Source: Bacteroidales bacterium (GTDB lineage: Bacteria; Bacteroidota; Bacteroidia; Bacteroidales; GWA2-32-17). Taken from it: DNA of 55,952 bases. Both the position numbers and the translations under genes were made by a program. Shown here piece by piece: positions 8,203-48,203 of the stretch. The notes under the pieces are model-generated. The model did not search any database and was not told where the DNA came from. It worked only from the letters and a program-made list of their open reading frames with translations. The stretch covers positions 1 through 55,952 of the forward strand of contig JABUFC010000021.1 in assembly GCA_013314715.1 (NCBI GenBank), read 5' to 3'. Within the stretch, counting starts at the first letter, position 1. Every line of letters begins with the position of its first letter.

Positions 8203-8223
8203 AAATTGATTAAAAATATATTT

Positions 8224-9969
8224 ATGAAGAAGATTATTAGTTTTATTTCCGCGTTTATTTTGGTAAATAGTTTATTGTTTAGCCAAGAAATGGGATTGCC
8301 TCATTATTTAAGCAACAAAGAGGCATCTGAGTTACCAAATTACAACCCTCCCACTCCCAAAGGAATAACTCATCCGCCGGTTTCTCCTATTCGCAATGCT
8401 GCAGAATGGGAAGAAATGCAAGGTGTGTTAATCTCATGGAAATCGGGATATGAGAGCTTTTTAAGTCAAATTATTAAGTATGCACGCGAAGAAGCCAAAG
8501 TGTATGTTTATTGTTCCGATTCTACAACAGTAAAAAACTATTTAATCAACAACAACATTCCTACTACTAATATTCGATATCTCATTTCATCGCTCAATAG
8601 TGTTTGGATTCGCGATTTCGGTCCAAATAATATTTATACCAACGAAGTTGATTCATTGTATTTGGTCGATTGGGTATATAATCGCCCACGCCCACAAGAC
8701 GATGCTTCGCCGCAACAGTTTGCAACCCTTATGCAATTGCCATTATACCAATGTACTCAACCCCCTACCGATTTAGTGGCTACCGGTGGAAACTGGGTAA
8801 GCGATGGTTTTGGAACTGCTTTTAGTAGTAAGCTCATATTAGACGAAAACGCAACAACAAGCAGTTATAATCAAACTCCCAAAACAGAAGCCGACATAAA
8901 CAATATCGTTCGCGATTATTTAGGCATCGACCGCTATATTAAAATGGATGTACTACCTTACGATGGTATTCATCATATTGATATGCACTTTAAATTGTTA
9001 GACGAAGAAACCTTGTTAGTAGGTCAATATCCCAATGGTATTTCCGATGGTCCTCAAATTGAAGCCAATTTGAATTATATTTTAAATAACTTCAATTCGG
9101 TTTTTGGTACACCTTACAAAGTAGTTCGTATTCCCATGCCTCCCAGTACCAGTGGCACTTGGCCCAGTGATGGTGCTTACTATAGAACTTACACAAACTC
9201 ACTTATAATCAACAAAACCATTCTTGTTCCTACTTACTATGCTCAATACGATACAATTGCTCTTCGAATTTATCGTCAAGCGATGCCAGGTTACAGAGTT
9301 GTAGGCATCAATGCTAGTTCTATTATTTCGCAAAGCGGTGCTATTCATTGCACTACTCACGAAATTGGTGCAGTTAATCCATTACTTATTTCGCATCAGG
9401 CATTGCCCAATACCGATAACATATGGACCAATTATCAAGTAAATGCTTATATTCATCATAAAACAGGTATTCAAGAAGCTCGTATTTATTACAGAACCGA
9501 TACAACACAACCGTATGTATGGGTTCCTATGCAATTAACCAATAACACTAATCACACTTGGACAGGCGAAATCCCCGTTCAACCATCGGGCACCTATGTT
9601 TATTATTACATTTGGGCAAGAGCGAACTCTGGTAAAGAACAAGTACGCCCTATGCCAGCACCTGCTGGATATTGGAAATTTCGAGTTTATAATCCAACTG
9701 CCGTTCAAGAATTAACTGCCGATAATTTTATATGTAGAGCTCATTATATGGCAGAACAATTAACCATAAATATCTTTTCAAGCACTGAAACCACTGCTAA
9801 TATTACTCTATTTAATAATGTTGGACAACCCGTCGAAGTATTGTACAAAGGGAAATTATTGCAAGGGGCACAAGAATTAACCAACAACATCCATTTAGCA
9901 AAAGGCTTATATTTTATTAATATAGAAACCAATAAAGGCAAAAAGGTTGTTAAATTAGCCATTTATTAA
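8224..9969 (+). CDS. Secreted PPAD-like (agmatine deiminase-family) enzyme with T9SS sorting domain
   Basis: A 581-residue secreted protein starting at ATG 8224; an upstream in-frame TTG at 8206 is less likely. Order: signal peptide (1-21), agmatine deiminase/peptidylarginine deiminase catalytic domain (about 45-395), Ig-like domain (about 400-490) and a type IX secretion C-terminal domain (last 75 residues, with LAKGLYFINIET and KKVVKLAIY). Catalytic positions of the guanidine-modifying superfamily are present: Asp131 in WIRDFGP, His251 and Asp253 in HHID, and Cys376 in GAIHCTTHEIG. The motif YNRPRPQDD (Arg154, Arg156) resembles the paired arginines that bind the substrate carboxylate in Porphyromonas PPAD. 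The domain order is also that of PPAD. It may convert C-terminal arginine of peptides to citrulline, or free agmatine; the choice is inference. Confidence 0.85.
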   Translation: MKKIISFISAFILVNSLLFSQEMGLPHYLSNKEASELPNYNPPTPKGITHPPVSPIRNAAEWEEMQGVLISWKSGYESFLSQIIKYAREEAKVYVYCSDSTTVKNYLINNNIPTTNIRYLISSLNSVWIRDFGPNNIYTNEVDSLYLVDWVYNRPRPQDDASPQQFATLMQLPLYQCTQPPTDLVATGGNWVSDGFGTAFSSKLILDENATTSSYNQTPKTEADINNIVRDYLGIDRYIKMDVLPYDGIHHIDMHFKLLDEETLLVGQYPNGISDGPQIEANLNYILNNFNSVFGTPYKVVRIPMPPSTSGTWPSDGAYYRTYTNSLIINKTILVPTYYAQYDTIALRIYRQAMPGYRVVGINASSIISQSGAIHCTTHEIGAVNPLLISHQALPNTDNIWTNYQVNAYIHHKTGIQEARIYYRTDTTQPYVWVPMQLTNNTNHTWTGEIPVQPSGTYVYYYIWARANSGKEQVRPMPAPAGYWKFRVYNPTAVQELTADNFICRAHYMAEQLTINIFSSTETTANITLFNNVGQPVEVLYKGKLLQGAQELTNNIHLAKGLYFINIETNKGKKVVKLAIY

Positions 9970-20526: not shown

Positions 20527-22148
20527 ATGGTGATTTGCTTTACTCACTCCGCTCGTGCGATTGCTTCGCTAAGATCATTTTTGTATCTTTGATCGGTTCT
20601 TTTCAGCACGGTCATTTGTGCACGTACGTCTCCCATAGTTGTGATTTGCTTACATTTTTGTATCTTTGATAGGTTCTTTTCAGCTAGAAGGAGAAGCAAT
20701 AGATATAGATAGCTGTTGTGATTTGCTTACATTTTTGTATCTTTGATAGGTTCTTTTCAGCAATTGACTACGTTGAAAGCATAAGAAATTCGTTGTGATT
20801 TGCTTACATTTTTGTATCTTTGATAGGTTCTTTTCAGCGTTTTGTTTGCGTGGAAATGTTTGAAGATAGTTGTGATTTGCTTACATTTTTGTATCTTTGA
20901 TAGGTTCTTTTCAGCGACAAGAACCCTTTCGATACCTATAAGATGGTTGTGATTTGCTTACATTTTTGTATCTTTGATAGGTTCTTTTCAGCCTGCGTTG
21001 CGGTTGGCATCTGCTGCTGTATGTTGTGATTTGCTTACATTTTTGTATCTTTGATAGGTTCTTTTCAGCTTAAACGTGTTGTGTTGCCTAACGAACAAAT
21101 GTTGTGATTTGCTTACATTTTTGTATCTTTGATAGGTTCTTTTCAGCTTTGGTGCGTGAACATAACTACTTAACCATGTTGTGATTTGCTTACATTTTTG
21201 TATCTTTGATAGGTTCTTTTCAGCTAACATACTGGAAGATCCCCCAAGTGATGAGTTGTGATTTGCTTACATTTTTGTATCTTTGATAGGTTCTTTTCAG
21301 CTAACATACTGGAAGATCCCCCAAGTGATGAGTTGTGATTTGCTTACATTTTTGTATCTTTGATAGGTTCTTTTCAGCTGAGATTGGCACAAGTTCGATT
21401 TCGGTATCGTTGTGATTTGCTTACATTTTTGTATCTTTGATAGGTTCTTTTCAGCTGAAAATAATGATTTAATAAAACTTATTATGTTGTGATTTGCTTA
21501 CATTTTTGTATCTTTGATAGGTTCTTTTCAGCATTACGTCGCCCTTTTCATCGATTGCAATGGTTGTGATTTGCTTACATTTTTGTATCTTTGATAGGTT
21601 CTTTTCAGCACATTAACATTAACAAAAGCAAGAACGATAGTTGTGATTTGCTTACATTTTTGTATCTTTGATAGGTTCTTTTCAGCTATTTATATTTTTA
21701 TTTTAAAAATTTATTAGTTGTGATTTGCTTACATTTTTGTATCTTTGATAGGTTCTTTTCAGCTTTGTATCCTGAACACAGACATAATCCAATGTTGTGA
21801 TTTGCTTACATTTTTGTATCTTTGATAGGTTCTTTTCAGCTTTATTTATCATTCAATTAACTTCATACCTGTTGTGATTTGCTTACATTTTTGTATCTTT
21901 GATAGGTTCTTTTCAGCTAAATTATTTAAAAATGTTTCTGCTTCAAAGTTGTGATTTGCTTACATTTTTGTATCTTTGATAGGTTCTTTTCAGCTTTCAA
22001 ACCGCTGCAAATAATACCGTCTAAGTTGTGATTTGCTTACATTTTTGTATCTTTGATAGGTTCTTTTCAGCATACACCACTTTCTGCTGTACTGCCTTTT
22101 GGTTGTGATTTGCTTACATTTTTGTATCTTTGATAGGTTCTTTTCAGC
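20527..22148 (+). CRISPR. Type II-C CRISPR array: 20 intact 47-nt repeats, one split repeat, 20 spacers
   Basis: The repeat starts GTTGTGATTTGCTTAC and ends GGTTCTTTTCAGC. Intact repeats begin at 20638, 20715, 20792, 20869, 20946, 21023, 21101, 21178, 21255, 21332, 21409, 21486, 21563, 21640, 21717, 21794, 21871, 21948, 22025 and 22102. A split, mutated repeat occupies 20527-20607. Spacers are 30 nt, except one of 31 (21070-21100). Two adjacent spacers (21225 and 21302) are identical. The plus orientation is set by the tracrRNA anti-repeat, which pairs with repeat bases 2-20. Repeat bases 24-31 (TATCTTTG) form a promoter -7 element. Intact repeats are identical as far as I can read. Confidence 0.98.
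20544..20576. other. 33-nt insertion splitting the first CRISPR repeat
   Basis: Left of the insertion, GTGATTTGCTT matches repeat bases 4-14. Right of it, 20577-20607 matches bases 17-47 with a single change (A to C in GATCGG). The inserted bases (start TCACTCCGCTCG, end TTCGCTAAGATC) do not resemble repeat or spacer and are richer in GC than the surroundings. Confidence 0.7.
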
Positions 22149-22208
22149 AAATACAGCTAAAATTAGCACCAGTGGCTGAAAATATGTAAAAAACAGAAAG
22201 AAAAAAAA

Positions 22209-23205: not shown

Positions 23206-26200
23206 TTAAATATTGTCTAAAAAATAAATTTGACCTAATAAATCAATTTTAACTTTAATCGGGTTTAAATCATATAATGCGTTAATACTTTGTATTAAAT
23301 AAAAACGTTTGCTAAGTTTAGCTTCGGCACTGTCGTTTATTTGTGTCTCTAGATGATGTCGAAACATATAATTTTTTTGAGCTATTTTTTGCACTCTATA
23401 TAAATGTTCGCTAAGCTTAGAGTAGTTCTGTGTGTCGATGCATTGTTTAATATCTTCGTTTTTTAAACCCAATAAAAACATTTCGTTTAGCTGCATACTA
23501 AACAATAGTGTCCATTGGTCGTTGGGTAGTTTTTCAATAAAACTTTGTGGAAAAGAATGGTTTTGATTTAATATTTTATTCCACACCTCTTGTGTATCAT
23601 AAATAATAATAGGTATTCCGTATTTTTTTCGTTCAACTGCATGCCAAAAAGTGCAAACGTGTTCGTATTTATTACCATTTTGATCGGTGTAAATTGCAAT
23701 GTGATGGTTATTGCCGGGTTTTACAAAGCCAATGTCGTTACCATTTTCGTCTTTTTTAATAGGCTCAACTTTTGTAAGCCCAGTAAAACATCGAACGGTT
23801 TTTATGGGGATTGTTTTTTTATCATCTAAATATAAAGGATCTTTAAATGCTTCTTTTTCTTTATCTTTATATTGTTCTAATCGTTGTGTAACAAGCTCTC
23901 TAATTTTTTTATCAACAATAGAATTGGCATCTTTGGGTTTAATTGTTTGTAGAGGATATTTAATAACGTATTCTTCTTTGTAGCAATGAGCTTTCTCGAG
24001 TTTAACTTTTTTATCGGGATCGAGGTATATGGGTGCATTTTTAAGCGATGCTAAGGCTTTTTTAGAATTGAATTGATAAAATTGTAAACGTTCCAAAACA
24101 AGTTGTTTTACATGCTGATTTATAATAAGTTCGTAATTTTCGAATAAATATTTTACATCTTTATCTTTTTCAATAATTTTAATTTTTCCGTAAATGCTTT
24201 CTTCGCTTAAAGGTCCGCGTGGTGTAATAATTTTTTGTTGAACTATAACTTTTTTTCCATTCTGGTTTATTTTGCGTACACTATAAGTAGCAACTTTTTT
24301 ACCTGCTTTATAAGAAACAAGAATATTAGCTACCTTTTCTTTAACCTGTTGTGTAGTAAATGGTCTTTTTGAAATAAGATATTTATCGAGTAAACTTAAT
24401 TTCTTTTTATATGTTTCGGTTTGGTTTTCAAGTTCTGCTAACATTTCGGTTTTGGTCGTTTGCGATGCTAAAGTGTTTATACGTTGAACAAATCCTTGCT
24501 GTGTACAAGCAATAACCAGAGCATCGATGGCATGGTGTCGCTGATCGTCGCGTTTTGTCCAACCTTTAATAACTTCTTTTTGGTGAATTTGTCCATCTAT
24601 TTCTATTTCTATAATTTCAGTAAGACCCACTGCTCTATATTTAGGCAGTTGCAATTCCATTAAAACATCGTCCCATCCCCAAATTCTCCGCAAATGTTCT
24701 GTAATACTCCCGCTTGTACTACAAACATTGTAACAAATAGCACCAAGTATTTGTTTAGCTTTACGAGCAATATATTGCGATTCTCTTAGCTGACGACTGA
24801 TAAAATCTTTGGGTATTTTACTAGCAGGCATTAAAAGCTTATCGCGTTTAGATTTGGTAATGAGTTTATCTTTAAAAAGTTTATCAACTCGTTCGATGTA
24901 TTCGTTAAATTTATCATCGCCTAAGCTTTTCATATAATCATAGGCTGTATTTTGCCCTTTTGCTGCATTGCAATGCCGATGCGACAATGTTTTATTGTTT
25001 TGTGAATCGTCGAATAATAGCGATTTAGGAATAATATGTTCTATATCAATGTTATTTCCAGTTAATGCATCGCTAAATCCAAATGGTTGTCCGCAATAAA
25101 TACAAATAGCATTAATACGCGCCTCCTGTTCATTTGTTATTTCATGAAATAAACGCCATTTAATAATATTGTTACGTGTAGGTTTTAATCCGTATTCTTT
25201 TTCGAGTCGTTCTGCAATTATTTTATTTTGTTTTTCACGTTCGCGTTGCAACTTAAATGCTTCGTTACGTTCTTCTTTGCTCGATGTGAGTTCTCGAGCA
25301 AGTTCAACTCGTATCTCAAAATTGTTGCTAATACGGTCTTGTCGTGTAACCCAACCCCTATTTTCGTCGATAATTTCGTTTACCAAATTGATAAGTTGAT
25401 TTAATATTTTTTCAACAATAGGTTGCCTCAAACTGTTTTTGGGCAAAAGTTCGAGTTTGTCTTTTAATTGATTTTGTAACAATTCTTCTTTCGTCAGACT
25501 AAATGAATGATTATATCCAGCCAAAGAACAAGCATTGCTGTAATTGTAGCCATCCATAAGATATGGCAATATTTTACGCATCGCTTTTACCGATTTGTTG
25601 CCATAACCCGAAGTTTTAAAATCGATATTGGCTAATTTTTCGGCTAGCTGTTCAGAAAGATTAAATTTTTTAATAAGTGCCTGTTTACATTCTTGTGTGC
25701 CATCAATAGAATAAATGGTGTGCCAAAGTTGGTAAAATGGCTCTTGTTCAATATTATGTAAAACTACTTTTTTGTTAGTAGTAATATATTCGCCTGTTTT
25801 AGTGTCAACTAAACTAACTTCCTCATGGAACTCATTTATTTCAATATTAAATTGTAAAATATGGGCATCAAATTCTTGCCCTTCCAGAGCTTTAAGTATT
25901 TTTACTTTTGTAATATTGCCTTGAATACCGTTATTGATTTGTTTATTGCCATACCATCCATCTTCTTTTTTTATTTCAAGAATCTTAAATAGTTCGTTAG
26001 TTGTTAATTTTTCGTTTTTATCTAAATATTCAAAAATAGCTCTTTTTTTATCAATAGGGATATTAATTTGTTCTCCATTTTTATTTTTAAGTTTAAGGTT
26101 ATTGATAGTTTCCCAAATTTTGGTAATTTGAAAAATGGGCGAACTTTTGGGTGCCACTTTTGGACCCACAAAAATTTCTTTACCGTTGATAATAATCCTT

Positions 26201-26931
26201 CTTCCTTCGAATTCGCATACACAAACTAAACCTTTTTGCGATTTTAACGGTCGTTGATAATAAATAATTTCGTTTTTAATTTTATTGACAAGCTCTTCGG
26301 TTAAAACATGTGGATAATATTTTTTTTGACATTCAATAATCTTATCGAATTCTTCGATATATGCCTCCCTAGGAAAAACTTGTTCTTTAGTTCTATAATA
26401 TGGATTTTGTTTTAACTCTTCGTAAAATTTTTGCCCAATGGTTAGGTTTTGCTCTTTAATGAGTTGATATCTATTTTTTACTTCTTGAACATATTCGGTT
26501 TCTTTTTTTTCGAGCGAACTAGCTTTTGTAGGACTTTTATAGCCTCTTTTTTGATTCAAATGATACAATATGCGACCTAATTCGGTAAGACTTATTTTTT
26601 CATTAACCGCTTTTGCCCTAAGCCCCCACAATTCAAGTTGTTTTAAATTGAAAAGATTCGGATCGAACATATTATTCTTAAGAAGCACTTCCGTTAATGC
26701 TTTTCTTCTTAGTTGGTATCGATCGTAACCTTTACGCTGTGTACGTTTTTCAGTTCTTTTTTGATTTTTTGATATAGCATTTCCTTGCATAAACTCATCT
26801 TTATCATCTGGGTTCAAGGGTATAATTCGCGACCCCATAGCAATGATTTTACTGTTATTTTCAGTTTCTTCTATTAATGCCCATCCAATAGAATTTGCAC
26901 CTAAATCGAGTCCTAAAATTTTTTTTGCCAT
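23206..26931 (-). CDS. cas9: CRISPR-associated endonuclease Cas9, type II-C
   Basis: 1241 residues. RuvC-I ILGLDLGANSIGWAL (Asp9), arginine-rich bridge helix RKGYDRYQLRRKAL, RuvC-II IRVELARE (Glu543), HNH with zinc-ribbon-like CIYCGQ and IDIEHIIP (His632), and RuvC-III RHHAIDALV (His799, His800, Asp803) are all intact, so both nuclease sites should cut. A PAM-interacting domain of about 350 residues follows. It is longer than the roughly 1000-1100 residues typical of compact II-C enzymes but within the larger forms seen in Bacteroidota. No csn2 or cas4 is nearby, which fixes subtype II-C. I found no TAnnTTTG element directly upstream; it lies 206 nt after cas2 on the same strand, with the tracrRNA gene opposed in between. 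Confidence 0.97.
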   Translation of the reverse strand: MAKKILGLDLGANSIGWALIEETENNSKIIAMGSRIIPLNPDDKDEFMQGNAISKNQKRTEKRTQRKGYDRYQLRRKALTEVLLKNNMFDPNLFNLKQLELWGLRAKAVNEKISLTELGRILYHLNQKRGYKSPTKASSLEKKETEYVQEVKNRYQLIKEQNLTIGQKFYEELKQNPYYRTKEQVFPREAYIEEFDKIIECQKKYYPHVLTEELVNKIKNEIIYYQRPLKSQKGLVCVCEFEGRRIIINGKEIFVGPKVAPKSSPIFQITKIWETINNLKLKNKNGEQINIPIDKKRAIFEYLDKNEKLTTNELFKILEIKKEDGWYGNKQINNGIQGNITKVKILKALEGQEFDAHILQFNIEINEFHEEVSLVDTKTGEYITTNKKVVLHNIEQEPFYQLWHTIYSIDGTQECKQALIKKFNLSEQLAEKLANIDFKTSGYGNKSVKAMRKILPYLMDGYNYSNACSLAGYNHSFSLTKEELLQNQLKDKLELLPKNSLRQPIVEKILNQLINLVNEIIDENRGWVTRQDRISNNFEIRVELARELTSSKEERNEAFKLQREREKQNKIIAERLEKEYGLKPTRNNIIKWRLFHEITNEQEARINAICIYCGQPFGFSDALTGNNIDIEHIIPKSLLFDDSQNNKTLSHRHCNAAKGQNTAYDYMKSLGDDKFNEYIERVDKLFKDKLITKSKRDKLLMPASKIPKDFISRQLRESQYIARKAKQILGAICYNVCSTSGSITEHLRRIWGWDDVLMELQLPKYRAVGLTEIIEIEIDGQIHQKEVIKGWTKRDDQRHHAIDALVIACTQQGFVQRINTLASQTTKTEMLAELENQTETYKKKLSLLDKYLISKRPFTTQQVKEKVANILVSYKAGKKVATYSVRKINQNGKKVIVQQKIITPRGPLSEESIYGKIKIIEKDKDVKYLFENYELIINQHVKQLVLERLQFYQFNSKKALASLKNAPIYLDPDKKVKLEKAHCYKEEYVIKYPLQTIKPKDANSIVDKKIRELVTQRLEQYKDKEKEAFKDPLYLDDKKTIPIKTVRCFTGLTKVEPIKKDENGNDIGFVKPGNNHHIAIYTDQNGNKYEHVCTFWHAVERKKYGIPIIIYDTQEVWNKILNQNHSFPQSFIEKLPNDQWTLLFSMQLNEMFLLGLKNEDIKQCIDTQNYSKLSEHLYRVQKIAQKNYMFRHHLETQINDSAEAKLSKRFYLIQSINALYDLNPIKVKIDLLGQIYFLDNI

Positions 26932-41204: not shown

Positions 41205-42608
41205 TTAATCCTGTATTGTTGATAAAATTTCTAATAGTACGATATTTTCTACATGGCTAGTATGTGGAAACATATCAACCGGTTGAGAATAAACAATTTT
41301 ATAATGATTTTTTAGTAAAGCTAAATCGCGGGCTTGAGTTGCAGCATTACAGCTAACGTAAATAATTCGCTTAGAAGCTATTTCGACCAAGCTTTGAATA
41401 ACATCGGGATGAACTCCCGAACGTGGAGGATCAAGCACTATTAAATCGGGTTTACCATATCTTTTAATATGATCTTTAATTATAATATCTTTTACATCGC
41501 CTGCCTCAAAATATATATTATGAATATTATTTTTTTGCGCATTAGAATAAGCATTATCTATTGCCTCTTTAACATATTCGATACCAATTACAAAACGGGC
41601 TTGTTGTGCTAATAAAAGCGAAATAGTTCCTGTACCACAGAATAAATCATATACTAATTCATCGCCTTTTAAAGCAGCCCATTCTTTTACTTTAGTATAA
41701 AGTTTTTCGGTTTGATATAAATTGGTCTGAAAAAACGATACGGGATGTATATCAAATTCAAGGTTAAGCAACGATTCTTTGATTAGCTCCTGACCATATA
41801 AAAGTTTAAGTGGAACATTCTCTAACGAATCATTCAATTTATTGTTTAGAGCTATATAAAACGATTTTACCTCAGGTACATTCTTACGTATAAGCTCTTT
41901 TATGCTATCAATCCATTCGTGTTGCTCATATGCAACCGAAAGTATAAGCATAAATTCTCCCTTACGATTATTGCGTATAATTAAATTACGCAAAAAGCCC
42001 TCGTGATTTTTTAAATTATAAAAAGGAATATGCGCCTCATATGCAAACTGGCGTATAAGATTTCTTATTTTATTGGATGGTTCGGGTTGAAAAAAACAAT
42101 GTTCTATATTGAGTACTTTGTCGTAGCGTCCAGGAATATGAAAACCCAATACAGGACGTATAACATCATTCGTATTTATTAACCATGGATTTGTAGAAAA
42201 AGTAAAATCGAGTTTATTGCGATAATATTGTATTGGATTACAAGCTAGAATAGGATATTTGGTTTCAATTTGCAATTTGCCAATTCGCTCAAGCTGATCA
42301 TAAACCTGTTTTTCTTTATACTTTAACTGAGCATTATAGCTCATATGTTGCCATTTACATCCCCCACATAATCCAAAATGTTGACAAAATGGTTTTGTTC
42401 TATCGTCTGAAGAACTTAATATTTCGACTGTTTGCGCTTCGTAATAACGTCTTTTTTTGGCGATAACACGAATTAATAATTTATCGCCCGGCACTCCATT
42501 ATCGACAAAAAATATTTTATCGTCTAATTTAGCCACCCCTTTACCCTCAACAGTGGTATCAATAATTTCTACTTCAAATAGTTGTCCGTGTAATTTGGTT
42601 CTGCTCAT
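41205..42608 (-). CDS. rlmD: 23S rRNA (uracil-5-)-methyltransferase RlmD
   Basis: 467 residues. An N-terminal TRAM RNA-binding domain (about 5-60, LFEVEIIDTTVEGKGVAKLD), a four-Cys iron-sulfur cluster region (CQHFGLCGGCKW) and the class I methyltransferase domain with VYDLFCGTGTISLLLA, LVLDPPRSGVHP and the catalytic IIYVSCNAATQARDL. It methylates uridine C5 in ribosomal RNA with SAM. TrmA-like or RumA-like substrate choice is not certain. The start overlaps the NUDIX gene by 35 nt, so translation is coupled. Confidence 0.9.
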   Translation of the reverse strand: MSRTKLHGQLFEVEIIDTTVEGKGVAKLDDKIFFVDNGVPGDKLLIRVIAKKRRYYEAQTVEILSSSDDRTKPFCQHFGLCGGCKWQHMSYNAQLKYKEKQVYDQLERIGKLQIETKYPILACNPIQYYRNKLDFTFSTNPWLINTNDVIRPVLGFHIPGRYDKVLNIEHCFFQPEPSNKIRNLIRQFAYEAHIPFYNLKNHEGFLRNLIIRNNRKGEFMLILSVAYEQHEWIDSIKELIRKNVPEVKSFYIALNNKLNDSLENVPLKLLYGQELIKESLLNLEFDIHPVSFFQTNLYQTEKLYTKVKEWAALKGDELVYDLFCGTGTISLLLAQQARFVIGIEYVKEAIDNAYSNAQKNNIHNIYFEAGDVKDIIIKDHIKRYGKPDLIVLDPPRSGVHPDVIQSLVEIASKRIIYVSCNAATQARDLALLKNHYKIVYSQPVDMFPHTSHVENIVLLEILSTIQD

Positions 42609-43233
42609 TAAATATTTGTTTTAATATGCTTAAGCATTCATTCCATATCATGGATGTTGCACCCCATATTATGTTATCGTTTAGCAAAAAGCAAGGCACA
42701 TGGTATTCTTTTTGGTTATAATAAATGGTAGAAGTAGATAAAACATCTGAATTCAAAAAATCTTTTACTGAAAAAATAAGTATCTTTTCAACTTCAGCTT
42801 TATTAATATTTAATACTGGGAGATGTTCGCAAAAAAACACAAATGGGTAAACCAAAAATTTGCTTACTGGTATATAAAGTGAACTTAAAGATGCAATAAA
42901 AGTTAAATCTTGTTTTTTTACACCGATTTCTTCTTCTATTTCGCGATAAGCTGCATCTAAATGGGTTTCATTAATTTCTTTAGCACCACCGGGAAACGCA
43001 ATTTGTCCGCTATGAGGTCCAGGATCGGGTGTGCGTTTTATAAATAAAACTGAAAGTTCATTGTTTTTAATAAATAAAATAATTCCAACAGCTGCTTCAT
43101 ATTGATGTTGAGTATTTTTTTGTAGCTGTTCGTTGCGAAAAGTAGGCGAAAACAAATGTTGGGCATTCCATCCCGGAAGATCAACATTTGTAAATAAAGC
43201 CTTAAGTGTTTGTATATTAATTTTAGCTGACAT
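42574..43233 (-). CDS. NUDIX hydrolase, CoA pyrophosphatase-like
   Basis: 219 residues. The NUDIX box GGAKEINETHLDAAYREIEE (followed by EIGV) is complete, and the preceding LFIKRTPDPGPHSGQIAFPG carries the NudL/CoA-hydrolase pattern. It would cleave CoA or acyl-CoA to phosphopantetheine and adenosine 3',5'-bisphosphate. It starts one base into the gatD stop (43233) and its end overlaps rlmD. Other pyrophosphate substrates are possible. Confidence 0.87.
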   Translation of the reverse strand: MSAKINIQTLKALFTNVDLPGWNAQHLFSPTFRNEQLQKNTQHQYEAAVGIILFIKNNELSVLFIKRTPDPGPHSGQIAFPGGAKEINETHLDAAYREIEEEIGVKKQDLTFIASLSSLYIPVSKFLVYPFVFFCEHLPVLNINKAEVEKILIFSVKDFLNSDVLSTSTIYYNQKEYHVPCFLLNDNIIWGATSMIWNECLSILKQIFNEQNQITRTTI

Positions 43234-44621
43234 TATTTATGGAATTTCCTTAAAAATTCTTCTACTTCGGGAACTCCTCCTTGATAAACTAAATATCCAT
43301 TATAGGGCTCACGTTTGGTAATCTCATCATTAATAGGAGTTAGCATTAAACGTTTAACTTCTTCGGGGTCGTTGGTTTGGCCTAATACCCAGCCTAATTT
43401 AATATAAGCTGTTTCTGGTAACATATTTTCGGCGGGAATAATTCCTTTTGCCATTAAATCGCGTCCCGTGTCATATACATACATATGACAAAAGCCATAA
43501 AGTGTCTGTACGGTCATAAATATATGTACACCTTTTTTAGTAGCTCTTTCAATAGCTGGATATAGTGGTTTATTAATATGTCCTAAACCTGTCCCAGCAA
43601 TAACAATCCCTTTATATCCATTATCAACTAATGAATCTATAATATCGGGCTGCATATTAGGATAATAATAAACGAGGCTTACTTTCTCTTCGAAATAAGG
43701 TTTAATAATAACATTTTTATCCTTTCGGCGATGATTATAAACTTCTTTAATAGGTTTAACTCCATCTTTGCGAGATACGGTAGCTAAAGGTGTATCGCTC
43801 AATGTTCTAAAAGTAGAACGATACGATGAATGCATTTTACGTACACGTGTTCCACGATGTAAAAAGCCATATTCATCGCTTGTAGGGCCAAACATACAAA
43901 CCATAACTTCGGCAATATCGCCATGACCAGCTGTAATAGCTGCATGAATAAGATTAAGGGCAGCATCAGATGATGGTCGGTCGCTTGAGCGTTGTGAACC
44001 GACTAATACTATGGGCACGGGTGGATTTTGAACCATAAAAGTTAATGCAGCAGCAGTATGACTCAATGTATCCGTGCCATGTCCGATAATAATACCATCG
44101 ATGCCTTTTTCTATTTCTTTACCAATAGATATGGCAAGTTTTTTATATTGTTCGGGACCCATATTTTCGCTAAAAACTGCAAATAATTTTTCGGTCGAGA
44201 TATTGCAAATATCGGCCAACTCGGGCACTGCACCATAAAGCTCACCGGGCGAAAAAGCGGGTATAACAGCACCTGTTCTATAATCGAGACGAGAAGCAAT
44301 GGTTCCTCCCGTTCCAAACAACTTTACATTGGGATTTTTGGGGTTTACTGGAAATTCTTTTTCTGGAATTTTATAATGTGCTTCTTTATAGCCTAATTCC
44401 TGCATACTTTGAATGGTAGTAACATCAATGCCAATGTTGTATCCAGTTGCAACCTTTACAACAATGTGCATATCGTCGTCGTTTTCTGCTCTAGGAAGTA
44501 CTGTTCCATTAAATTCACCACGCGAAGTAACTATGCGGGCTTGTCCCCATACTCTAACATTAAATTGCTGAAGTAAAGCTAGAGCTCTACCTTTATATCC
44601 TTTAAATACATCGTCTGCCAT
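43233..44621 (-). CDS. gatD: Glu-tRNA(Gln) amidotransferase subunit D
   Basis: 462 residues. The N-terminal SH3-like domain (about 8-95) includes VTSRGEFNGTVLPR and GYNIGIDV. The asparaginase-like domain follows with LFGTGGTIASRLDYRTGAVI. Catalytic positions are Thr104, Thr183, Asp184 (GHGTDTLSH) and Lys262 (RVRKMHSSY), equivalent to the archaeal enzyme's Thr, Thr, Asp and Lys. GatD releases ammonia from asparagine or glutamine, which GatE uses to convert Glu-tRNA(Gln) to Gln-tRNA(Gln). GatDE is considered an archaeal enzyme; bacteria normally use GatCAB or glutaminyl-tRNA synthetase. It starts 4 nt after gatE. A stand-alone L-asparaginase is excluded by the N-terminal domain and the partner gene. 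Confidence 0.93.
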   Translation of the reverse strand: MADDVFKGYKGRALALLQQFNVRVWGQARIVTSRGEFNGTVLPRAENDDDMHIVVKVATGYNIGIDVTTIQSMQELGYKEAHYKIPEKEFPVNPKNPNVKLFGTGGTIASRLDYRTGAVIPAFSPGELYGAVPELADICNISTEKLFAVFSENMGPEQYKKLAISIGKEIEKGIDGIIIGHGTDTLSHTAAALTFMVQNPPVPIVLVGSQRSSDRPSSDAALNLIHAAITAGHGDIAEVMVCMFGPTSDEYGFLHRGTRVRKMHSSYRSTFRTLSDTPLATVSRKDGVKPIKEVYNHRRKDKNVIIKPYFEEKVSLVYYYPNMQPDIIDSLVDNGYKGIVIAGTGLGHINKPLYPAIERATKKGVHIFMTVQTLYGFCHMYVYDTGRDLMAKGIIPAENMLPETAYIKLGWVLGQTNDPEEVKRLMLTPINDEITKREPYNGYLVYQGGVPEVEEFLRKFHK

Positions 44622-44625
44622 AACG

Positions 44626-46587
44626 TTATAATTCTATAAGTTTATATACTTCGTTTAATTCTACATTCCCAATTGCTTGTGGTCGAATTACACCCATTAT
44701 CCAATTGCTCATGAGTGTTTTTTTCTTTTCTTTCTTAGGTGTAAATTTATTTTTTAATAATTGTGCTGCATTCATAATTTCTTCCTTTGTTTTGGGCTGA
44801 AATTTTATGCTGTGCAGTATACTTTGAAAGTCCATTTCGGGGTGTAAATAAATTTCTTTTAAAAGTGGGTAAGCTAATTGAGTTGTATATTGGTTCTGTT
44901 TTATAAATGCTAATAGGTCGTAAACTTGTTCAAAACGGAATTGAGATTTATTTTTTGCTTTTCCTTGTAAGTGTTTTAGGCGGTGAGCCAATAAGGTAGC
45001 AACAAAAATTGGGTTAAATCCCAATTCAATATTTATTTTCTCAATGAGCGGGACAAGATTATTACGTAATAAATAGGTATAAGTATCTTTTGGTACTTTC
45101 CATTCAACTAATTGTTGAAAACGCTTGTTAATTGGCACAGGAAGTTTTTCTGCAATTTTTTCAAGATATTCATTGGCTAAGGGTATCGGTGCCGAATCAG
45201 TGTCGGGATACATACGATCAGCGCCAGGCAATACGCGTTCAAAAATTGTGATTCCACTGGGCAGCGATTTTCGGGTTTCTTTAGGCACTCCCTTAAAAGC
45301 CATTTGACAACGTTCCTGAATGACTTCAAGAGCAGTAGGAATATCATCAACTGGCGACCAGAAAAGTAATACTGCATCGTTTTCGCTTACATTTAAAAGT
45401 TTGTATGTTTTTTCAAAAATATCATCACTTACATTTTTTTCCCAATCTTCGTCGTGGGTCATATTGGGCTGTTCGATACAAGCAATAACTTTTAATCTTT
45501 CGCTAATTTCGTGAGCAAAACAACGTCCAGGTTGAGTAAAATGCGACATAGCACCTCTAAAATAGGGCAACTTAACGGCTATAAGCTTATGACCTTGTGC
45601 TATCGCATTTTTTAAGGGTGTATAATTAAAATCAAAAAATTGTGGATTTATTTCTAACGATTCAATTTTCCAATTGTTAATATCAGGAACTTTTTTTAAC
45701 AATTCATCACGTAGGTGTAATAAAGCCCATTGACGGAAGGCTTCATTATGAGTAAGTTCAGGTATCCATTTATTATGCGAAACTCCCTTTATTTCGACAC
45801 GAGTTCCGCCTTTACAACTTACATTTACATCTTGACGCCCAGCCCCAATTCCAATACGAACCTTACCCGTGCTTCTATTTAAAAAACGAATATAATCGGC
45901 AACTTCTTTGACTTCATCAGGGTACTGCATATCGGGATAAGTAACCGTTTCAATGAGTGGCATGCCTAAACGGTCGGTCATATATACTCTTCTGTGCCCA
46001 ACATCACTAACTTCGCGGCAAGAATCTTCTTCGATACTAAGTTGAATAAGTCTTATTTTTTTGTGTGGCATATCCAATTCGCCTTCAACTCCAAGTATGG
46101 CTGTACGCTGAAAGCCTGTAGGAATACTACCATCTAAATATTGTTTTCGAGTAATATGTACTTCGCCAACAATATTAAGTTTGCAAAGCATAGCTATTTC
46201 AAGAGCTATTTCAAGGGCTTCACGGTCAATTTTAAAGGGGGGAGTGTCGTCTATTTCGTAAGTACATGCAGTTTGATGTTTGATTTGATATACAATTTCT
46301 TTTCGTGTTTTAAATTCCATCAAAGCAGTGCCATCGTATTCGCCAAGTTCACTCAGTGTTGGCCTCATATGACGAATAATTTCAGCATCGTAATCATGAG
46401 GCTTTTGATAAATCCCTGCAGGACAATGACAAAAAAGTTTTTCTTTCGTTTTTAATTGTTGATGAACTTCTAATCCCGACATGAAACCTATTCGTTTATA
46501 ATCATCGAGAGTAGCTTTTTTTCTTGGAATATATCCAATGGCTTGTTCTGTTTTTTTGTAATTTTCTAAAGCATCAAATTTTATCAT
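44626..46587 (-). CDS. gatE: Glu-tRNA(Gln) amidotransferase subunit E
   Basis: 653 residues, first gene of the gatE-gatD-NUDIX-rlmD unit. The GatB/GatE core opens with IGFMSGLEVHQQLKTKEKLF and CHCPAG, then RPTLSELGEYDG, the kinase-like region and GAGRQDVNVSCKGGTRVEIKG. The GAD insertion domain that separates GatE from GatB lies in the middle (about 290-400, including GRCFAHEISERLK). The C-terminal tail is the Yqey-like tRNA-binding helical region. GatE activates and amidates Glu-tRNA(Gln). Its upstream region has a possible structured leader. Confidence 0.93.
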   Translation of the reverse strand: MIKFDALENYKKTEQAIGYIPRKKATLDDYKRIGFMSGLEVHQQLKTKEKLFCHCPAGIYQKPHDYDAEIIRHMRPTLSELGEYDGTALMEFKTRKEIVYQIKHQTACTYEIDDTPPFKIDREALEIALEIAMLCKLNIVGEVHITRKQYLDGSIPTGFQRTAILGVEGELDMPHKKIRLIQLSIEEDSCREVSDVGHRRVYMTDRLGMPLIETVTYPDMQYPDEVKEVADYIRFLNRSTGKVRIGIGAGRQDVNVSCKGGTRVEIKGVSHNKWIPELTHNEAFRQWALLHLRDELLKKVPDINNWKIESLEINPQFFDFNYTPLKNAIAQGHKLIAVKLPYFRGAMSHFTQPGRCFAHEISERLKVIACIEQPNMTHDEDWEKNVSDDIFEKTYKLLNVSENDAVLLFWSPVDDIPTALEVIQERCQMAFKGVPKETRKSLPSGITIFERVLPGADRMYPDTDSAPIPLANEYLEKIAEKLPVPINKRFQQLVEWKVPKDTYTYLLRNNLVPLIEKINIELGFNPIFVATLLAHRLKHLQGKAKNKSQFRFEQVYDLLAFIKQNQYTTQLAYPLLKEIYLHPEMDFQSILHSIKFQPKTKEEIMNAAQLLKNKFTPKKEKKKTLMSNWIMGVIRPQAIGNVELNEVYKLIEL

Positions 46588-46612
46588 AATTTATGTAAAT
46601 TTTTAATTTTTC

Positions 46613-46657
46613 CTCCCTACCTATTAAACGAAGCATATTTTCGTTTTTAACGGGGAG
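46613..46657 (-). promoter_or_regulatory. Possible structured leader of gatE with an enclosed purine-rich site
   Basis: On minus, CTCCC (46657-46653) can pair with GGGAG (46617-46613). Inside this, AAACGAA and TTCGTTT (46646-46640 with 46632-46626) form a 7-bp hairpin. The GGGAGGA strand lies about 25 nt upstream of the gatE ATG at 46587, and could be masked by the outer stem. Confidence 0.4.
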
Positions 46658-46735
46658 TTTTATCCAGATTTCTTTTGTAATTGATAAACGTTTACTCACA
46701 CTATTGTAGATGATAATCCTGATTTATGAATGCTA

Positions 46736-46743
46736 CAAACTTA
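46736..46743 (-). promoter_or_regulatory. Candidate gatE -7 element (TAAGTTTG, minus strand)
   Basis: CAAACTTA on plus reads TAAGTTTG on minus, matching TAnnTTTG. The nearest -33 candidate is poor (ATTG at 23 nt), so the promoter is tentative. It would give a leader of about 140 nt including the structure at 46613-46657. Confidence 0.35.
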
Positions 46744-46884
46744 CATAAAATTTAATAAAATATAATCAATTGATAATAAATTTTTAAAAGTACTTAAGCG
46801 TAAAATATTTGTTGTCTTTAAATAAGTATTGAGACCTTTGCAAAACTTTTTTTTCTTATGTAATTGAAAAAAAATTGAAAATAA

Positions 46885-47011
46885 AAGACATTTGCAAAAC
46901 TCCTTTTTCGTCATGGCGATCCCGAAAAATCGGGATCACAACACAATACCAAACCTTCATTTGCAATGACAGGAAGGAATTGTTGAGATAAAAGAGTTTT
47001 GCAAAGATCTT
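46885..47011. repeat. MITE-like element, copy A
   Basis: 127 nt. Left end AAGACATTTGCAAAACTC, right end (reverse complement) AAGATCTTTGCAAAACTC, an 18-nt terminal inverted repeat. Inside are CGTCATGGCGATCCCGA and TTTGCAATGACAGG. It differs from copy B at only a few positions. A further left-type end, GAGACCTTTGCAAAACT, lies at 46831, suggesting nested insertion. Confidence 0.75.
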
Positions 47012-47260
47012 GTATCGTATGCGAGTGTTAGGAAAGGATGTCTCACCACAAATTATACGTCAATCGTTGTTAAGTGTACAACTAAGTATTTTACGTGATA
47101 AAAAACGAATAAACGCTATGTTATTCCGTCAAATATAACTCAACAAGCAAAAGAAATTTATCAATCCGTAGGATTAAAAATATCAAATATGCCATTTATG
47201 ATCGTATAATGAATTGACATATAATTACTTAGGTCTAATAAGTGGCGAAGTCGTGGGAAG

Positions 47261-47281
47261 ATCCCGCAACAAGTTCGGGAT
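47261..47281. repeat. REP-like hairpin ATCCCG/CGGGAT
   Basis: ATCCCG (47261-47266), AACAAGT loop and CGGGAT (47276-47281), followed by GACG. This is a dispersed Bacteroidota palindrome type. Confidence 0.55.
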
Positions 47282-47338
47282 GACGAATGGTGTGGTGAGT
47301 ATTGCCTATTTCAAAAGACCATCATACTAGCCTCCAAG

Positions 47339-47538
47339 CGTCATACTGAATTTGTTTCAGTATCTCCTCAAACTACAACACTACCTCCCGACCGTCATAC
47401 TGAACTCGTTTCAGTATCCAATCAAACACATCATTTCCTTCATACTATCCCTTATACGTCATGCTGAACTTGTTTCAGTATCTCTACCAAAACCCAACAC
47501 TCACCCAAAAACCATCATACTGAATTTATTTCAGCATC
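47339..47538. repeat. Cluster of four REP-like palindromes (TCATACTGAA type)
   Basis: Copies at 47339-47364, 47393-47418, 47457-47482 and 47513-47538. Each reads like CGTCATACTGAA, a four-base loop region, then TTCAGTATC, with ACTGAA pairing to TTCAGT. Spacing is 54, 64 and 56 nt, and copies 2 and 4 share a CCAATCAAA tail. Confidence 0.8.
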
Positions 47539-47563
47539 CAATCAAAAATATTATTCACATCAT

Positions 47564-47690
47564 GAGACATTTGCAAAACTCCTTTTTCGTCATGGCGATC
47601 CCGAGAAATCGGGATCACAACACAATACCAACCCTTCATTTGCAATGACAGGAAGGAATTGTTGAGATAAAAGAGTTTTGAAAAGGTCTT
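47564..47690. repeat. MITE-like element, copy B
   Basis: 127 nt, the same length as copy A and more than 95 percent identical by eye. Ends are GAGACATTTGCAAAACTC and, on the reverse complement, AAGACCTTTTCAAAACTC. No transposase is encoded in either copy. Confidence 0.75.
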
Positions 47691-47923
47691 GTATTACAAA
47701 TATCGATTTAGCGAATTGATTATTTTTTGTATTTATTAAAAAACTTTTAGTTTTGTAATTATAGTATAAACTAAATCCAATTGATTGACTAACTAAGAAA
47801 ACTTATTGACTGGAATTGTATTTATAAATTAGGTAACAATCTTAAATATAATTAAAAGCTAAATGCTTTTAGCTAAAAATCTATAAAAGTAAAACTAAAA
47901 TTAACGAACACCCGCGTAAAAGA

Positions 47924-48052
47924 TTAAGCTTTATCTACCTGTTGACTTTGACTAACTTCACCGTATGCTGGGCAATGTTCGCTACTTTTGCAGGATTGAA
48001 AAAATACTGCTAACGTAAATAGAGCAACTATAATTACAACGACTTTTTTCAT
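47924..48052 (-). CDS. Small lipoprotein (42 residues) with CPAYG motif
   Basis: A short frame starting ATG at 48052 and ending at 47924. It encodes a signal-like stretch (MKKVVVIIVALFTLAV) with lipobox FFQSC (Cys21), then KSSEHCPAYGEV and a Gln/Ser tail. After acylation the mature peptide would be 22 residues. The coding ending, lipobox and the second Cys in a CPAYG motif make it likely real; small Bacteroidota lipoproteins with this motif occur. Role unknown. It is divergent from the nitroreductase gene. Confidence 0.7.
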   Translation of the reverse strand: MKKVVVIIVALFTLAVFFQSCKSSEHCPAYGEVSQSQQVDKA

Positions 48053-48171
48053 TATACAAGCTTTTTAACATTTGCAAATATACAACTTTTTCGAAAAAAG
48101 AATAAAGATATTCAAAAAAATTTTTCAACATATATATTTATTTATATACAATAGCTAATAGACCTTAAATT

Positions 48172-48203
48172 TTTGCTTATTAATAAAGAAACTTGTATGT
48201 TTG
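48172..48203 (+). promoter_or_regulatory. Nitroreductase promoter (TTTG-N20-TATGTTTG)
   Basis: TTTG (48172-48175) and TATGTTTG (48196-48203) with a 20-nt spacer. Predicted start is around 48209, about 10 nt before ATG 48219, so the mRNA is almost leaderless. Confidence 0.75.

Follow-up and report, generated by a model that had tools for sequence, protein, structure and literature searches.

The described system closest to the genes analysed here is the archaeal Glu-tRNAGln amidotransferase GatDE, in which GatD releases ammonia from glutamine or asparagine and GatE activates the glutamate of Glu-tRNAGln and then amidates it to Gln-tRNAGln. In the available passages of a 2022 review, GatDE is now confined to archaea and the special archaeal tRNAGln is tied to the absence of glutaminyl-tRNA synthetase (GlnRS) from archaea (PMC9499178); the available part of a further paper likewise places GatDE in archaea only (PMC8007984). 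According to the accessible passages of a 2014 paper, no bacterium was known to possess both routes to Gln-tRNAGln, and there are bacteria that retain the amidotransferase GatCAB beside asparaginyl-tRNA synthetase (AsnRS) for tRNA-dependent asparagine formation (PMC4206432). No treatment of bacterial GatDE was found in the literature searched, which was judged from listings and passages and lay mostly outside subscription papers. Here we analysed a stretch of 55,952 nucleotides (the window; contig JABUFC010000021.1 of assembly GCA_013314715.1, from a Bacteroidales bacterium) that carries a complete gatE-gatD pair in a genome also encoding GlnRS. The two structural genes are the following:

44626-46587, minus strand: gatE, 653 amino acids, kinase/transamidase subunit of Glu-tRNAGln amidotransferase, with a catalytic cradle at residues ~35-300, an AspRS-like (GAD) insertion at 303-435 and a helical part with a probable YqeY tail at ~486-653
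43233-44621, minus strand: gatD, 462 amino acids, asparaginase-like amidase subunit with a GatD_N (SH3-like) domain and the residues Thr104, Thr183, Asp184 and Lys262

Both subunits are complete, as had been claimed in the initial annotation, and exceed the curated cut-offs of the NCBIfam equivalogs. GatD reached 501.5 bits with TIGR02153 (cut-off 324) and 504.8 bits with NF003217 (310), and GatE reached 411.7 bits with TIGR00134 (319.55) and 486.1 bits with NF003107 (456). Because both pass NCBI's models, automatic annotation probably already names the two genes GatD and GatE. In Pfam, GatD is composed of GatD_N, which corresponds to the SH3-like N-terminal domain predicted initially, Asparaginase and Asparaginase_C, and GatE contains GatB_N. 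The four residues Thr104, Thr183, Asp184 and Lys262, which we take to be catalytic, do not vary across the 33 GatD rows aligned, which include two archaeal ones. By sequence, the closest solved structures for both subunits are 1zq1 from Pyrococcus abyssi (E=4.8e-94 for GatE and E=7.3e-116 for GatD) and 2d6f (E=2.3e-88 and E=1.1e-113, respectively), which is presumably from M. thermautotrophicus. Thus, the pair resembles archaeal GatDE in its two subunits, its domains and the catalytic residues of GatD, but sequence identity is limited, amounting for GatE to 37.7% with P. abyssi (515 columns) and 33.8% with M. thermautotrophicus (536 columns), and for GatD to about 45%.

An AlphaFold model of GatE (mean predicted local distance difference test score 82.3, predicted template modelling score 0.70) found its best structural match in 2d6f, the GatDE-tRNAGln complex (Z 27.8 over 487 residues, root-mean-square deviation 8.9). 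The GAD-type insertion noted earlier is below the Pfam cut-off when the sequence profile is used (13.9 bits, cut-off 23.4), although residues 303-435 of the model match the insertion of AspRS with Z 8.1-10.7. For the YqeY tail, the Pfam score is also below the cut-off (14.8 bits, cut-off 27), and model residues 597-653 match a YqeY structure with Z 7.5 over 52 residues, which is a weak match taken alone. Confidence is lowest at 75-91, 149-159 and 453-457, all within highly conserved parts, where fine detail can therefore hardly be read from the model. With GatB, the corresponding subunit of bacterial GatCAB, the window GatE shares the catalytic cradle and probably the fold of the tail, but it has the AspRS-like insertion, it is followed by gatD and, in a GatB-rooted tree in which long branches meet and which is to be read with that caution, it separates from GatB at full support; a nesting of GatE within a GatB clade, considered beforehand, was not seen. 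The analysis confirms that the window encodes a genuine archaeal-type GatDE and not a misread GatB or asparaginase.

In the host assembly (3.0 Mb in 100 contigs, 99.5% complete), the Glx synthetase catalytic domain was matched twice, by a GlnRS of 577 amino acids (746 bits, cut-off 425.8; locus L001) and by a bacterial-type glutamyl-tRNA synthetase (GluRS) of 509 amino acids, which is the only GluRS found. AsnRS is present, as are tRNAGln with the anticodons UUG and CUG. GatB was not found in the host (PF02637 gave no match and PF02934 matched GatE only), in a search that did not extend to GatA and GatC. As GlnRS and AsnRS are present and GatB was not found, on present knowledge no translation step requires GatDE in this host. 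GatDE sits beside GlnRS and not in its place, and the idea of the initial annotation that it fills the role of GatCAB or GlnRS has to be given up for this genome in view of the full-length GlnRS. To the reading that GatDE is a working second route to Gln-tRNAGln, accessory because the cell also has GlnRS, we give an even chance. Judging from the family, GatD would free ammonia and GatE would convert Glu-tRNAGln to Gln-tRNAGln; the substrate would most likely be Glu-tRNAGln made by GluRS at a low level or in particular conditions, and the purpose may be the clean-up of mischarged tRNA or a supply of tRNA-bound glutamine when free glutamine is short.

Bacterial GatDE is a widespread group and not a single transferred operon, a scale that escaped the initial annotation, which had correctly recognized the archaeal type of the enzyme. 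Using a GatE profile that was positive in 4 of 4 archaeal genomes and in 0 of 10 bacterial control genomes, GatE was detected in 123 of the 295 genomes sampled from the window's order (121 above the cut-off) and in 29 of 32 genomes from other classes of the phylum, the latter having been pre-selected from 395 by GatB_N matches. A scan of named records yielded at least 576 GatE relatives, and among the best 80 of 576, which were used here, the majority are titled Bacteroidales or Bacteroidetes, the other labels, as filed, being Aminicenantes, Acidobacteria, Cloacimonadota, Chlorobiota, Neomarinimicrobiota and Alphaproteobacteria. The loci labeled Alphaproteobacteria, Neomarinimicrobiota and Chlorobiota and two labeled Aminicenantes are placed among Bacteroidales and may represent mislabelled bins. 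The gatE-gatD operon is also carried by Perlabentimonas gracilis (L118), which is presumably cultured, its record being titled as a named strain.

Within the order, GlnRS was found in 271 of the 295 genomes, that is in 112 of 123 GatE-positive and 159 of 172 GatE-negative ones. The GlnRS-less fractions are similar with GatE (11/123) and without it (13/172), as expected of assembly gaps (Fisher p = 0.83, computed with 14 GatE-negative GlnRS-less genomes, one too many because G394 lies outside the order sample). A function of GatDE as a substitute for GlnRS was rejected, since GatE is not associated with the absence of GlnRS in the order. GatB, at a threshold of E < 1e-80, was detected in 14 of the 295 genomes, eight of which are GatE-positive. 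We regard it as very improbable that GatDE is the main or sole route to Gln-tRNAGln, even in some lineages. Three of the 11 GatE-positive genomes lacking GlnRS have GatB and the other eight (G428, G468, G533, G571, G593, G637, G641 and G644) have neither, which would favor such a role, the more so as two of the eight are 96 and 99% complete, but same-genus relatives of G428, G468, G571 and G637 possess GlnRS, GlnRS is missing about as often where GatE is absent, and the host itself has GlnRS. In a further set of 48 genomes, host included, 44 have GlnRS, and the four without it are G043, which has no GatE, G251, which has GatE and whose same-genus relative G055 has GlnRS, and G287 and G314, whose GatB besides GatE also argues against GatDE as the sole route. 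In G287 and G314 (L198 and L197), which belong to another class, the two GatB_N matches correspond to GatB and GatE, and no GlnRS was found. No well-supported genome relying on GatDE alone for Gln-tRNAGln was found among those surveyed. Altogether, about 150 examined genomes carry both GatE and GlnRS (112 from the order, 26 from other classes and 15 reached via named loci, at least one being counted twice), and for this reason both statements of the 2022 review, on the restriction of GatDE to archaea and on the tie between the special archaeal tRNAGln and the lack of GlnRS, look out of date.

Since GatB was not found in the host, GatDE might instead amidate Asp-tRNAAsn in place of GatCAB. This is extremely improbable, as the host has AsnRS and so do 51 of the 52 GatE-positive genomes searched for it (G511 being the exception), and as GatDE is described, in the passages available, as the archaeal enzyme for glutamine (PMC9499178). 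The bacteria with AsnRS and GatCAB offer a parallel in that a direct and an indirect route occur together, but there, in the part of the source at hand, asparagine and a non-discriminating AspRS are concerned (PMC4206432), whereas here it is glutamine and no non-discriminating GluRS is evident.

Phylogenetic trees of GatE were based on two sound archaeal rows; the Natrinema row (L224) was dropped as broken, L218 was missing from the GatE rows, and 8 of 25 GatB rows were used for the GatB-rooted tree. In this tree the bacterial GatE rows group together, apart from the two archaeal rows, with support 89/47, and the same grouping is obtained for GatD with support 100/100. Two bacterial GatE clades can be distinguished, clade I from other classes and clade II comprising Bacteroidales and relatives. 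Mean GatE identity is 42.7% between clades I and II, 35.3 and 33.1% to the two archaeal rows and 54.8% between the archaeal rows, the corresponding values for GatD being 68.4%, 47.4 and 45.4%, and 56.5%. A pair labelled Aminicenantes/Acidobacteria (L157 and L182) and L188, labelled Cloacimonadota, fall outside the Bacteroidales rows (support 87; 89/96 in the GatB-rooted tree). The row L221 is odd in having a long branch, and L223, from another class, is located within clade II among Bacteroidales. Such a grouping would fit a deep bacterial branch and a transfer from an unsampled archaeal group alike. For 27 genomes, the tree of GatE was compared with that of GlnRS, and the two agreed weakly above chance (Mantel r 0.55, 0 of 2000 permutations; 4 of 24 splits in common, with a random mean of 0.27 and a maximum of 4). 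Given this weak agreement and the position of L223, GatDE may also have been transferred between families. As to a mobile origin, no relative turned up in two pattern scans of viral_contigs, and among the plasmid matches listed the sole long GatE-type match is a broken archaeal copy from Natrinema; the remaining plasmid matches (best 20 of 23 and best 20 of 27) and the phage matches (10 of 10) are partial, less than 35% identical and, where annotated, gatB. The Natrinema copy (L224, 3001-4664) is a broken and unannotated GatE on a 987 kb replicon of Natrinema thermotolerans filed as a plasmid.

In the window, gatE and gatD are separated by four bases on the minus strand and are followed by two further genes, as the initial annotation had described:

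42574-43233, minus strand: NUDIX hydrolase, overlapping the gatD stop by 1 base, a recurrent downstream neighbour
41205-42608, minus strand: RlmD-type uracil methyltransferase with TRAM and tRNA_U5-meth_tr domains

In 70 of the 80 named loci gatD follows gatE in the same orientation, at most 100 bases away in 57 of them, and in the other 10 no gatD was seen within the stretch examined; of the 29 loci from other classes of the phylum, 28 have gatD next to gatE. Among 101 loci examined, the order gatE-gatD-NUDIX-rlmD is common to two, from a genome of the same genus (G456) and one of the same family (G559), and 12 further loci show the order gatE-gatD-NUDIX, so that NUDIX is the downstream neighbour in 14 of the 101; at least 10 of the 101 loci stop short of the position where NUDIX would be found. 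A gene that by eye resembles a secreted peptidase is located between gatE and gatD in L067 (192-1508) and L068 (211-1455), and in L063 a repetitive protein follows gatE; these genes were taken as insertions. Upstream of gatE, the window contains 1.6 kb without a credible gene (46588-48200); a direct repeat of 149 bases (91%) lies there, as do four copies of 53 bases at spacings of 54-64 bases, reminiscent of short interspersed repeats. Elsewhere in the window, a Cas9-type protein of 1241 amino acids with RuvC_III and HNH_4 (23206-26931, minus strand) and an adjacent array whose roughly 20 units repeat every 77 bases (20561-22178) form a type II CRISPR locus, and a protein of the Porphyromonas-type peptidyl-arginine deiminase family with a type IX secretion tail is encoded at 8206-9969.

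Nonsynonymous divergence (dN) was compared with the same-genus and same-family genomes. Against G456, dN is 0.055 for gatD, 0.181 for gatE, 0.261 for gltX, 0.354 for rlmD and 0.418 for NUDIX, and against G559 it is 0.103 for gatD, 0.187 for glnS, 0.279 for gatE, 0.344 for gltX, 0.491 for rlmD and 0.616 for NUDIX. From these values it is evident that dN is lowest for gatD among the five and the six genes, respectively, and that gatE is below gltX in both comparisons. Synonymous divergence (dS) is at least 1.35 or beyond estimate, with synonymous sites near saturation, and therefore recent exchange does not explain the low dN of gatD. A stop inside the GatE match occurs in just 4 of the 123 GatE-positive genomes. 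By these measures gatE-gatD is under purifying selection and, together with the gene order kept in G456 and G559, this bears out the earlier view of a long-resident pair. That GatDE is a transfer relic with no present role, as its patchy presence even inside one genus (GatE is found in G000 and G456 and not in G651) and the foreign gene between gatE and gatD in two loci might indicate, is very improbable when set against the dN values, the nearly saturated synonymous sites and the rarity of stops.

Several observations weigh against a working second route to Gln-tRNAGln. GatE was not found in 172 of the 295 genomes of the order, same-genus G651 included, and the route is therefore dispensable. 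Beyond gatD and NUDIX, the recurrent neighbours belong to families with no evident link to translation, several of them on the opposite strand. The residue equivalent to Thermus Arg358 is arginine in the one GluRS found in the host and in that of 15 of 15 GatE-positive and 15 of 15 GatE-negative relatives. This argues, suggestively only, against a non-discriminating GluRS, as mutation of the same residue in GluRS1 of H. pylori had, in the accessible part of that study, no such effect and the marker is imperfect (PMC3927822). Of the charging genes surveyed at the suggestion of the initial annotation, glnS and a GluRS with a discriminating-type arginine were found where GatB was not, and the refuting condition named there, lack of a misacylating GluRS, leans against its reading. 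A misacylating GluRS as a trait linked to GatDE found no support, the Arg358 position not differing between GatE-positive and GatE-negative genomes. Finally, tRNAGln begins with U1-A72 in all 36 sequences read from 30 genomes, two of them from the host (a thirty-first genome, G605, yielded no tRNAGln), and has A73 in 34 of 36, the remaining two being of uncertain register. Archaeal GatDE is reported, in the passages available, to read A1:U72 and the D-loop of a tRNAGln with A73 (PMC9499178), so recognition by the bacterial enzyme would have to differ. In contrast to the archaeal indirect pathway, the host thus combines GlnRS with a U1-A72 and not an A1-U72 tRNAGln; U1-A72 is the pair said, in the part of the source at hand, to be required on tRNAAsn by bacterial GatCAB (PMC4206432).

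In the loci L060 and L257-L285, with and without GatE, tRNAGln mostly has A73, which is described as archaeal, whereas G73 is given as the bacterial base. When 15 GatE-positive and 15 GatE-negative genomes were first compared, a tRNAGln of 73-74 bases with a long D-loop stood out among the GatE-positive ones (G397, G458, G490, G511, G587 and G589). A second look, downstream of glnS, revealed this type in 4 of 20 GatE-positive and 3 of 20 GatE-negative genomes, including G400 and G426, for which the first set had given none. The long-D-loop tRNAGln as a partner of GatDE was rejected, as its frequency downstream of glnS is similar with and without GatE. A long-D-loop tRNAGln(CUG) is located just downstream of glnS in L315, L316, L332, L333, L338, L341, L361, L367 and L369, again with and without GatE.

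The main rival to an accessory route is a changed substrate. In this case GatDE would have kept its chemistry and would act on a different substrate, be it some other Glu-charged RNA or an acceptor that is not a tRNA, or would serve mainly as a tRNA-controlled asparaginase/glutaminase. We consider this unlikely, though deserving serious attention. In its favor, the classical role is unnecessary where GlnRS and AsnRS are present, tRNAGln is devoid of the archaeal A1:U72 pair, GatD is unusually conserved among the genes compared, and conserved stretches that the archaeal rows do not share run through the 31 GatE rows of Bacteroidales. However, GatE retains the motifs common to both archaeal GatE structures and the overall architecture, and no recurrent neighbour hints at another pathway.

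We propose tentatively, and with less than even confidence, that several bacterial phyla share their own deep GatDE branch, which would have evolved for U1-A72 tRNAGln and would work beside GlnRS. These would then be the first organisms with direct and indirect routes to Gln-tRNAGln, the archaeal-only and GlnRS-exclusive view of GatDE would be wrong, and both domains may have had the enzyme from an early stage. The findings bear on the mutual exclusion of GatDE and GlnRS, on how GatDE reads tRNAGln and on how old tRNA-dependent glutamine synthesis is, and the reason for keeping both routes is a testable question, as the operon is found in a named strain of Perlabentimonas gracilis.

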